From Bdellovibrio sp. (GTDB lineage: Bacteria > Bdellovibrionota > Bdellovibrionia > Bdellovibrionales > Bdellovibrionaceae), in NCBI GenBank assembly GCA_019104905.1, contig JAHRXB010000246.1, positions 1 to 12,107 of the forward strand: a stretch of DNA of 12,107 nucleotides, written 5' to 3'. A program made the position numbers and the translations under genes. Under the pieces are notes generated by a model. The model made no database searches, had not been told where the DNA came from, and was given only the letters and a program-made list of their open reading frames with translations. Numbering within the stretch: position 1 is the stretch's first letter; each line of letters begins with the position of its first letter. Positions 1,620-9,886 of this stretch are shown piece by piece.

Positions 1620-1676
1620 AAGTCTGCTAACTAAACACTTTTGATCTTTTCTCACCTTATTAAGAGAGGAACTGAG

Positions 1677-2207
1677 ATGGCGAAAAAGGCTGCGAAAAAG
1701 GAAGCACCTGCGGCAAAGGCCAAGAAGGCGGCGAAACCCGTTGCAAAGGCGAAGGCACCCGCAAAGGCGGCAAAACCTGTAAAAGCTGCGAAACCAGCAG
1801 CAAAAGAAGTGAAGGCGACAAAAGCTCCCAAAGCGGCGCCGAAAGCCCCTGAAAAAAAGGCGGCTCCACCACCTCCAGCCCCTGTAAAGGCTCCGAAAGC
1901 CGAGAAAAAAGTGAAAGCCGAGGCTGTTCCTGCTGAGGTTGTGGTCGAAGCTCCCAAAAAAGAAAAAAAGGTCAAAATTGACAAGTCCGGGATGTCGGAA
2001 GATCAAGTCAAGTGGCATGAGTTTCGTGAAAAGTACAAAGGCATGAAGGCTCCTGCTTACAGTATTTCGGGTCAATTTGAGGCAAAGACTCCTTTGCAGC
2101 ATAAGATCTTTGGCTGGGGATTTATTCTATCCAATGAATATGACCGCTTAGAGGTTCTTTTTGAGGATGGAAAACGAATGCTGATCAGCAATAGGAAGCT
2201 GTCATAG
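1677..2207 (+). CDS. Histone-H1-like Lys/Ala/Pro-rich protein with a small C-terminal domain
   Basis: This 176-residue protein has two parts. Residues 1-102 are a low-complexity tail of KAAK, PAKA and KAP units, highly basic and surely disordered, like the tails of bacterial histone-H1-like proteins and AlgP. Residues 103-176 look folded. They include LQHKIFGWGFILS, then LEVLFEDGKRMLISNR, the pattern (H-x2-FG-x-G, then V-x-F-x-DG-x-R-x-L) of a small beta-barrel found at the C-terminus of UvrD/PcrA-type helicases and in stand-alone deltaproteobacterial proteins. DNA or RNA binding is therefore likely, with no known specific role. An in-frame ATG at 1641 would add 12 residues, but GAGAGGA precedes the ATG at 1677 at normal distance. 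The next gene, infA, follows after 50 bases. Confidence 0.85.
   Translation: MAKKAAKKEAPAAKAKKAAKPVAKAKAPAKAAKPVKAAKPAAKEVKATKAPKAAPKAPEKKAAPPPPAPVKAPKAEKKVKAEAVPAEVVVEAPKKEKKVKIDKSGMSEDQVKWHEFREKYKGMKAPAYSISGQFEAKTPLQHKIFGWGFILSNEYDRLEVLFEDGKRMLISNRKLS
1686..1900 (+). repeat. Degenerate Lys/Ala/Pro codon repeats
   Basis: Short imperfect direct repeats of the type GCAAAGGC / GCGGCAAAA encode the KAAK and PAKA units of the basic tail. The stretch is so biased that long open frames appear on the opposite strand; these are compositional shadows. Such repeats often change length between strains. Confidence 0.75.
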
Positions 2208-2257: not shown

Positions 2258-2476
2258 ATGGCAAAAGACGATTTAGTACAAATTGATGGAAAAGTGATCG
2301 ACGCCCTTGCGGGTGGACTCTATAAGATCGAACTCGATAATAAAGCGATCATCAACGCTAAACTTTGCGGAAAGATGAGACGCTTTAACATTCGTGTGGT
2401 CGTGGGCGACCGGGTGAGCGTAGGGGTTTCCCCTTACGACCCCACTCATGGTCTGATCATGTTCCGTCATAAATAA
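2258..2476 (+). CDS. infA: Translation initiation factor IF-1
   Basis: IF-1 binds the A site of the 30S subunit and, with IF-2 and IF-3, controls start-codon selection. The protein has exactly the family length, 72 residues, and one OB-fold (S1-like) domain. It aligns end to end from memory with E. coli IF-1: MAK-D at the start, GKMR at residues 38-41, IR at 45-46, GD-V-V at 50-55 and SPYD at 58-61. It is divergent elsewhere: the usual AHISGKMR is AKLCGKMR, and the usual G-R-I near the end is G-L-I. No ribosome binding site is visible upstream, and there is no alternative start nearby. tex follows after 44 bases, so the two are likely co-transcribed. Whether this is the only IF-1 or a second paralogue cannot be seen here. 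Confidence 0.95.
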   Translation: MAKDDLVQIDGKVIDALAGGLYKIELDNKAIINAKLCGKMRRFNIRVVVGDRVSVGVSPYDPTHGLIMFRHK

Positions 2477-8077: not shown

Positions 8078-9070
8078 TTAGCGACCAAGATTTGCAAGAA
8101 GCATTTGTAGGAAGGCAGCCATGGTCTGTTGTTGATTTGATCCCAAACCGATATTGGGAAGAGCGGAGTTTTGTCCCTGCATCAAACTGCCCAGCAAAGT
8201 CGTGATGGCCGAGTTGTTAATCATTTGAGAACCCGCCAGTTGACCCAATCCCAAGTTTGAACCCGAAGCGAAAGAGCCTAACAAAGTTTGTAGTAAAGAG
8301 GCGTTCATTCCGCCAGGAAGTGCAATTCCTGAAATACCTTGAACAGAGCCGGCACCAATTTGTGAAAGAATACTTGAGAATAAAGTGGAGTTCAGACCGC
8401 TAGTCCCATTGATGCCGCCGATACCCAACACGGCGCCAGAAGAAATACTTTGAATGATGTTTGAAAGATCACCAGAGCCTAATCCTGTTGAACCGAGGTT
8501 TCCCGTCAGAGATCCAATCAAAGATCCCGCGACTTGAGAAATATTTCCGGAAGAGATTCCGGCACTCGGCAAATTCTGAAAGAGGGAGCCCGTGAGAGTC
8601 TGAATAAGATCGGTGGGAACTCCGGTTCCCGAGCCAGAGCCAAGAATTGAACCCAGAGAGCCATTGCCAATAAGAGCTAAAACATCTGTGACCTGCCCGG
8701 TGGGAAGTCCCAGTCCGCCAACACCTTGAGAAGCTCCACCAATAAGAACAGGAAGGATCGCGCTAAGATCATTGCTGTTGCTGAGCCCAGCACCGCCAAG
8801 GGCAGAGCTGGCCATGCCAATAATAGTGCTGATCTGAGAGTTGTTAAGTGAAATTCCGGTGGTCGTGATTTTCTGAGCTGTGGCGTTGCCGGAATTCTGT
8901 GTGGTTCTTAGTGTCGCTTCAAGTTCTTGAAGCATCTTTTGTGCTTCGGACGTGTTCTGGACACTTTGTGGAGCGTTTTCACTGGCGGCATCAACGGCTG
9001 ACATATTGTTGTTGCATCCTGCAAGAAATCCAATCGCTAACAATGCTGAAACGAGTGCTTGCTTGTTCAT
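8078..9070 (-). CDS. Repeat lipoprotein, Gly/Ser-rich and nearly uncharged
   Basis: From the ATG at 9070 the protein has 330 residues; GAGGAGG ends seven bases upstream. A longer frame to 9223 is rejected because it lacks such a site and would bury the signal peptide. Residues 1-18 are a lipoprotein signal with lipobox LAGC, giving lipidated Cys19. The next residue is Asn, not Asp, so by enterobacterial rules it would go to the outer membrane. A Q/S/E-rich linker (20-75) is followed by about ten degenerate repeats of 22-30 residues (77-330). Each begins with N, D or Q, has a short hydrophobic stretch, then a GS turn and a Gly-rich segment. Between residue 68 and the final Arg330 there is no Lys, Arg or Glu and only four Asp. 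The family is not recognised. A surface or adhesive role is possible but unproven. Confidence 0.88.
   Translation of the reverse strand: MNKQALVSALLAIGFLAGCNNNMSAVDAASENAPQSVQNTSEAQKMLQELEATLRTTQNSGNATAQKITTTGISLNNSQISTIIGMASSALGGAGLSNSNDLSAILPVLIGGASQGVGGLGLPTGQVTDVLALIGNGSLGSILGSGSGTGVPTDLIQTLTGSLFQNLPSAGISSGNISQVAGSLIGSLTGNLGSTGLGSGDLSNIIQSISSGAVLGIGGINGTSGLNSTLFSSILSQIGAGSVQGISGIALPGGMNASLLQTLLGSFASGSNLGLGQLAGSQMINNSAITTLLGSLMQGQNSALPNIGLGSNQQQTMAAFLQMLLANLGR
8084..8842 (-). repeat. About ten degenerate 22-30-residue protein repeats
   Basis: Units start near residues 77, 101, 127, 154, 176, 201, 227, 256, 286 and 312 of the lipoprotein. The shared pattern is [N/D/Q]-x-[S/T]-x-hydrophobic pair, then GS, then G-x-G or G-x2-G. 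At the DNA level the copies have diverged, so this is an old expansion rather than a fresh tandem array. Confidence 0.65.
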
Positions 9071-9238
9071 GGTGGTCCCTCCTCTTGAGATCCAAAAACA
9101 GATTAGAGGAAATTCTGAAAAATAAAAATGGGCAGAAAAAAAATATAATTTTGTGTGTTTACGGAAAATGCAGATTTTAAAAAATTGCTGTCGAAGAAAT
9201 TTGCAGAAGATCGTGGATAACATAAGAATGTCTGAAGG

Positions 9239-9383: not shown

Positions 9384-9863
9384 TTAAGGGGAACCTCGCT
9401 GACAATAACCCACGACATCCATGAAGGTGGCCATGATTTCGGCGTTGAAAACCTGTCTTTTTGCGATCCACATGATCAGAAGGAGATCGGGATTGGGCAG
9501 TTGGCAAAAGCCCGCCTCGATGTAGCACTTGTAGTGAGAGCGGATGCCGATGCTTTGAATGTTGTTACAGGAAAGATCGGGATTTTCGTAAAGATTGGCT
9601 AGCAGTTCTTGTTGCAGGCAAGCGCGAATGCCTTTAGCGACAACCTGCCCGGCGGGGGAAAAGGAATCGTGTCTTCTGAGATACTCTTGGCAGTAAGGCA
9701 GGGCAAATTTTCTGATGTAGGATTGATACCCACAACGCAGACTGTTTTCGATGTCGTAGTAGGTGTCACAGCTGTTTTCAAGATCAGAAAGTTCCTGAGT
9801 GTAGGCGGGAGTTGCTGAAAAAATCAGTGAGAGTAATAAGAGGGTGAAGATTGATGCCTTCAT
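9384..9863 (-). CDS. Secreted eight-cysteine protein with a stanniocalcin-like pattern
   Basis: The 159-residue protein starts with a Sec signal peptide (hydrophobic residues 5-17, cleavage probably near TPA-YTQ at 20-21). The mature part has eight Cys: 32, 44, 58, 82, 99, 113, 120 and 154, enough for four disulfides, so it is exported to the periplasm or beyond. Spacings from C58 on are 24-17-14-7-34. Human stanniocalcin-1, as recalled, has 24-16-14-7-35 for Cys 74, 98, 114, 128, 135 and 170. Residues between also agree: F-x3-G before C82, C-x2-[IF]-Q after C99, CY between the 113 and 120 cysteines, and NP after C120. By that alignment C82-C113 and C120-C154 would pair. GAGGA precedes the ATG by four bases. 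Homology is inferred by eye; the function in a bacterium is unknown. Confidence 0.85.
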   Translation of the reverse strand: MKASIFTLLLLSLIFSATPAYTQELSDLENSCDTYYDIENSLRCGYQSYIRKFALPYCQEYLRRHDSFSPAGQVVAKGIRACLQQELLANLYENPDLSCNNIQSIGIRSHYKCYIEAGFCQLPNPDLLLIMWIAKRQVFNAEIMATFMDVVGYCQRGSP

Positions 9864-9886
9864 AAAGTCCTCGATTCGTGGCCGCT

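Follow-up and report, generated by a model that had tools for sequence, protein, structure and literature searches.

The 12,107-nucleotide stretch of contig JAHRXB010000246.1 from Bdellovibrio sp. (assembly GCA_019104905.1), hereafter the window, carries a gene at positions 9384..9863 of the minus strand whose 159-amino-acid product belongs to a bacterial family related to the stanniocalcins (STC1 and STC2, Pfam PF03298). Stanniocalcins are hormone proteins known from vertebrates. At the level of the family, and by computation, common ancestry and a common fold with the eukaryotic stanniocalcins are very probable, and profile and predicted fold place the family in the stanniocalcin superfamily. 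We refer to the window protein as a member of a bacterial stanniocalcin-fold family and do not term it a stanniocalcin, because it lies below the Pfam cut-off, has fewer than ten of the framework cysteines and lacks the dimer cysteine. No hormone-like function is claimed.

The evidence for homology comes from 56 distinct members, which were taken from fetched loci and are not all of the matches of the phylum-wide search described below. One alignment held 48 of them (the 48-row profile) and another 42. PF03298 matched 22 of the 48 at E-values of 0.1 or lower (best 1.3e-6), and each of the other Pfam families listed matched one of the 48. In a rescan of seven proteins, five of which had been chosen for prior high scores, five exceeded the curated PF03298 cut-off of 23 bits; the protein of Bdellovibrio bacteriovorus strain kdesi and the plasmid protein P0143 were unmatched. 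When the 140 genomes of the order were scanned without any such choice, PF03298 gave 20 places at E<=0.1. Eleven of these, among them the top eight, were family loci. The remaining nine (E 0.008 and above) were non-family. Three of the 140 genomes had matches over the cut-off, all three at family loci, and no place was found by PF03298 in 14 control genomes.

Queried against PDB, the 48-row profile retrieved three stanniocalcin-2 sequences (E 6.2e-7 to 2.7e-6), and the next match stood at 1.4. Aligning the family profile with an STC1/2 profile using hhalign gave an E-value of 5.8e-6 and a probability of 85%, compared with 1.9e-4 and 47% for an earlier 25-row profile. All 14 STC sequences scored between 29.3 and 42.4 bits with the 56-member profile, whereas the best of 5000 cysteine-fixed shuffles reached 17.9 bits for STC1 and 12.2 for STC2. 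In the reverse test with the STC profile, 36 of the 56 bacterial members exceeded all 50 of their own cysteine-fixed shuffles. These tests mostly share one family profile and are therefore not fully independent. On the stanniocalcin side, 120 of 303 STC matches were listed, and the named ones among these were vertebrate. Stanniocalcin-2 also ranked first among the structure matches of the predicted folds, both models being closest to STC2 chains. The bacterial relative of stanniocalcins proposed in the original prediction is thus supported by family profile and predicted fold, and the opposite outcome, no profile match together with a different fold, did not occur.

Several results weigh against this assignment for the window protein itself. 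It scored 0.0 bits with the STC profile, not above its own cysteine-fixed shuffles, and PF03298 gave no place in the genome of the window, missing the gene. It is among the more divergent members, has no direct Pfam match, and possesses eight of the ten stanniocalcin cysteines, the pair equivalent to STC1 C45-C59 (the fifth disulfide) being absent. Since the protein scores nothing by itself, it is placed through its family; the expected profile match to stanniocalcins was obtained for the family and failed for this protein alone. Used as a single query, it had no match in Pfam at E<=10, NCBIfam at E<=1 or PHROG at E<=0.1. Antibody chains appeared at E 0.03 and above in a phmmer search of PDB and were judged to be chance matches.

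The features of the gene and its product are given below. Cysteine partners are predicted from the alignment and the STC2 pairing table in PMC9780223.

9384..9863, minus strand: gene of the stanniocalcin-fold protein, 159 amino acids, ATG start, stop codon within (open reading frame listing, homologues, pN/pS as explained below).
9869..9872, minus strand: GAGG, likely ribosome-binding site, 5 bases ahead of the ATG (by eye).
9798..9863, minus strand: apparent Sec-type signal peptide, residues ~1-22, with Lys, a hydrophobic stretch and small residues (by eye).
9402..9770, minus strand: stanniocalcin-fold domain, C32-C154, entirely alpha-helical in the model.
9504..9692, minus strand: core, C58-C120, YC-x2-YL-x5-FS-x2-G...CLQ...C-x13-CY-x5-C, where the likeness between bacteria and STC is highest (alignments).
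9534..9536, minus strand: H110, unchanged across the 56 bacterial members and also present in the cysteine-free Rhs domain described below; Gln in four STC sequences.
9717..9719, minus strand: Y49, unchanged across the 56 bacterial members and also present in the same Rhs domain; a gap in four STC sequences.
9768..9770, minus strand: C32 (STC1 C54, STC2 C65), with predicted partner C58 (STC1 C74, STC2 C85) at 9690-9692.
9732..9734, minus strand: C44 (STC1 C65, STC2 C76), with predicted partner C99 (STC1 C114, STC2 C125) at 9567-9569.
9618..9620, minus strand: C82 (STC1 C98, STC2 C109), with predicted partner C113 (STC1 C128, STC2 C139) at 9525-9527.
9504..9506, minus strand: C120 (STC1 C135, STC2 C146), with predicted partner C154 (STC1 C170, STC2 C181) at 9402-9404.

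The open reading frame is a real gene, as judged from its relatives in genomes of the order and from purifying selection: in comparison with a relative (L002 in genome G021), the nonsynonymous value (pN) was 0.139 and the synonymous value (pS) 0.688.

The cysteines of the window protein, at residues 32, 44, 58, 82, 99, 113, 120 and 154, are spaced 12-14-24-17-14-7-34, and the same eight positions in STC1 and STC2 are spaced 11-9-24-16-14-7-35. The original prediction had pointed to the last six (24-17-14-7-34 against 24-16-14-7-35 in STC1), which proved exact, and to the motifs F-x3-G-x9-C, C-x2-[IF]-Q and CY, which are present when the protein is compared with STC sequences. Its suggestion that the first two cysteines are substitute partners was not borne out, as they align with STC1 C54 and C65 themselves. 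The pairs listed above, C32-C58, C44-C99, C82-C113 and C120-C154, would form four disulfides. Both cysteines of the fifth pair were found in 42 of the 56 members, neither in 12 and one alone in two, of which L091 is a counting artefact (the residue cut falls after its first cysteine) and L092 a real exception. This pair changed state six times on a tree of 60 of the 62 rows (L092 and the Rhs domain were left out). That its two cysteines tend to be present or absent together is expected of a disulfide bond. In L006 (1450-1920), a member with the framework of eight, two extra cysteines occur elsewhere (NCIRPC, SGCGFC) and possibly form an alternative fifth disulfide. In L038 (1480-1980) the N-terminal stretch CTPSANSCEFYxC is duplicated in frame beside the first cysteine pair.

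All 56 aligned members keep the eight cysteines, Tyr35, Tyr49, Leu83, His110 and Tyr114, though this full conservation is partly due to selection, the collecting profile itself holding those positions, cysteines included. Otherwise the family is diverse, with a mean column identity of 20% against 52% in the STC set used.

Counting the genome of the window, relatives of the window protein were found in 50 of the 140 genomes of the order (E<=0.01), and the 25-row profile detected them at the same threshold in 113 of 368 genomes of the phylum. Restricting the latter count to genomes with a completeness of 90% or more and a contamination of no more than 5% gave 82 of 234. A contig scan with one strict motif gave five loci and is hardly informative on distribution. 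Carriers include Bdellovibrio bacteriovorus strain kdesi, Bdellovibrio sp. UBA4095, Bdellovibrio reynosensis, one Bacteriovoracaceae metagenome-assembled genome (MAG) and two further MAGs. As a single query against some 5.8 billion proteins, the window protein retrieved six relatives with E<=1; a source was named for one of them, Bdellovibrio sp. Members that are named in their sources appear only as ‘hypothetical’ or ‘uncharacterized’ protein. Most carrier genomes have one copy. Diverged paralogues, two or three per genome, were seen in G143 (L065-L067), G012 (L036 and L089) and G063 (L004 and L084), and one group of these has longer C-termini. The member in the MAG of L054, which is titled Deltaproteobacteria but labelled Myxococcota in the tree (a perhaps outdated title or label), is sister to L046 from the phylum of the window.

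The search beyond the phylum covered plasmids, phages, IMG/VR viral contigs and one protein profile search. On plasmids, tblastn detected a member in the alphaproteobacterium Alisedimentitalea scapharcae, with E-values of 3e-4 for the kdesi query, 2e-12 for L073 and 8e-24 for L089. This member (L093, 5983-6528) has Trp in place of C120 but retains C154, and it carries additional cysteines (CPC, CNC); its last disulfide should therefore differ. Genes for a HipA-family protein and a GIY-YIG nuclease lie beside it on the plasmid, which is mobilizable. The Alisedimentitalea protein, used as query, led to a plasmid of Persicobacter (Bacteroidota), where a 1183-residue Rhs protein was matched in its C-terminal part (E 3e-7, reverse 5e-4). 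In that protein Rhs_assc_core occupies residues 884-962. The matched stretch of its C-terminal domain, P0144, is free of cysteines, and two cysteines lie upstream, between the stretch and the Rhs core. P0144 keeps Tyr49, Leu83, Gln84, His110, Tyr114 and Leu122, and it scored 35.6 bits with the family profile, where 5000 shuffles reached at most 2.5. As a query it had matches in 24 of the 368 genomes of the phylum (E<=0.01, the best at 1.9e-8); 21 of its 26 places were loci of the 113-genome search, and five weak ones were not. By its sequence, P0144 is a cysteine-free family member, and it is the only member found attached to an Rhs core. The loss of cysteines would fit a protein that works outside oxidising compartments. 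Six bases after the Rhs gene, an open reading frame for a 359-amino-acid lipoprotein-like protein (L094, 3559-4638) is a candidate immunity gene.

Phages gave no family match, and the 49 pattern matches among viral contigs included no relative. One weak P0144 match on a viral contig (L110; E 8e-5 among candidate stretches) lay in a 424-amino-acid open reading frame that, by eye, is without the other motifs and was dropped. Streptococcus plasmid matches at E 0.2 and a glycerol-kinase-like frame (L105) were judged to be chance.

We suggest that the window protein is an exported, disulfide-locked, all-helical protein of this stanniocalcin-related family that acts as an effector or binding protein outside the cytoplasm, an explanation that, taken whole, we hold with some confidence. 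The protein would leave the cytoplasm by Sec export, given the signal peptide recognised by eye, and would be stabilised by its four predicted disulfides. It may then act on prey or neighbouring cells as a small effector or binding protein, and the invariant residues His110, Tyr49 and Tyr114 are candidates for part of its working site. This last step, the role against other cells, has less support than export and disulfides and is put forward tentatively. It is favoured because Rhs proteins usually carry effectors as their C-terminal domains, Bdellovibrio is predatory and the presence of the family is patchy. The Rhs-linked cysteine-free member also points to an effector role, although a single example is thin evidence for function.

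Two other roles accept the homology, so that the confidences given to the readings overlap and sum to more than one. A bacterial protease inhibitor, binding to an exosite of a secreted metallopeptidase of its own cell, its prey or a rival, would resemble STC2, which inhibits PAPP-A through exosite binding (PMC9780223 and PMC9579167). Pappalysin-family peptidases exist in bacteria (PMC11674741), and the part of the window protein that aligns is the stanniocalcin core. However, the window protein has no equivalent of Cys120, the STC2 residue that bonds PAPP-A, and Peptidase_M43 (PF05572) exceeded its cut-off in 18 of the 140 genomes of the order, mostly as weak short stretches. The one strong match (E 1.3e-12) was in a genome (G076) without the family. 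As the family was present in seven of the 18 genomes with M43 and in 43 of the 122 others, there was no association, and no peptidase was recognised among the neighbouring genes, which were clustered without annotation. We consider this role unlikely.

An ordinary periplasmic role, in which disulfides stabilise an envelope or binding protein that serves its own cell and is not directed against others, would be consistent with a stand-alone gene under purifying selection, an apparent signal peptide, a mostly single copy per carrier genome and the lack of a widely shared neighbour. The patchy presence (113 of 368 genomes), the high divergence and the existence of an Rhs-linked member argue against it, and we regard it too as improbable. 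It is very unlikely that a disulfide-rich helical bundle came to share the stanniocalcin cysteine spacings by accident: such convergence could account for the failure of the window protein alone to exceed its shuffles, and middling structural scores do arise by chance in helical bundles, but it has to be set against the family-level results above. The possibility of contamination, or of an animal gene recently transferred into a single assembly, can be dismissed despite the fragmented assembly of the window genome (317 contigs), as members occur in 113 genomes, including single-contig ones of 3.3-4.0 Mb (G007, G010, G011, G014), and the family is more diverse than the STC set.

A further suggestion concerns the origin of the fold. 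It could have begun as a bacterial weapon or effector module, lacking cysteines in Rhs proteins and locked by disulfides where predatory bacteria export it, and then passed to early eukaryotes. There the conserved His/Tyr site would have disappeared and the scaffold would have turned into a secreted binding protein, so that a vertebrate hormone would derive from a bacterial effector. We offer this as speculation and think it rather improbable. In the tree, with midpoint rooting, STC was nested among the bacterial rows; this root is arbitrary and only four vertebrate STC rows were present, and no direction is claimed.

With this family, a fold that has so far been isolated gains bacterial relatives in nearly a third of the sampled genomes of one phylum and in scattered other bacteria. 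The family provides evolutionary context for the fold as well as simple proteins for its study, and a widespread protein of Bdellovibrio-type bacteria receives a first idea of its identity. The invariant His and Tyr residues and the Rhs-linked member suggest activities that are not normally sought in hormone families. In searches of an open-access library, no description of a bacterial stanniocalcin was recognised among the titles and beginnings of abstracts that were listed.

By eye, the window gene is flanked on the same strand by a HAD-like gene on the upstream side and a lipoprotein-like one on the downstream side. The latter, which adjoins it at 8078-9223 (minus strand), consists mostly of degenerate Gly/Ser/Leu-rich repeats. 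Elsewhere in the window, an open reading frame at 1641-2207 (plus strand) has a long Lys/Ala/Pro-rich, histone-like N-terminus and is adjoined by an IF-1-like gene at 2258-2476 (both by eye). The comparison of neighbourhoods covered 40 records, and the family gene could be identified in 38 of them. Every other protein cluster was confined to five records at most, and these groups were mostly close Bdellovibrio strains. One cluster, of proteins of 266-288 amino acids, lay near the family gene in four of the 40 records (L051, 1185-2048; L053, 3112-3945; L054, 7131-7943; L069, 3704-4501).

Among known systems, the Rhs polymorphic C-terminal effector domains are linked to the family through P0144 of Persicobacter. 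Unlike them, the window protein stands by itself with no Rhs core attached, is rich in cysteines and is apparently exported by Sec. The solved stanniocalcin structures that were found are those of the PAPP-A/STC2 complex (8A7D, 8A7E, 7Y5Q, 8HGH), whose STC2 chains are the best matches of both bacterial models. There is no indication of a pappalysin partner on the bacterial side, and the covalent Cys120 is missing from the window protein. One group reports that its search found no other protein with a fold similar to stanniocalcin-2 (PMC9579167), and the STC2 receptor is described as unclear in PMC9063168. The window protein is shorter than the stanniocalcins and has no C-terminal tail; it ends five residues past C154, before the position of the dimer cysteine (STC1 C202, STC2 C211). 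Its 159 residues contain no N-x-S/T sequon by eye, which would be unexpected anyway in such a bacterium. It has five extra residues between the equivalents of C65 and C74, and at the positions of the invariant His110 and Tyr49 the four STC rows show Gln and a gap, respectively. What PF03298 and the bacterial family share is the ten-cysteine framework, complete in 42 of the 56 members and represented by eight cysteines in the window protein, together with the near-identical spacing of the last six, the three motifs named above and an all-helical fold in the models.
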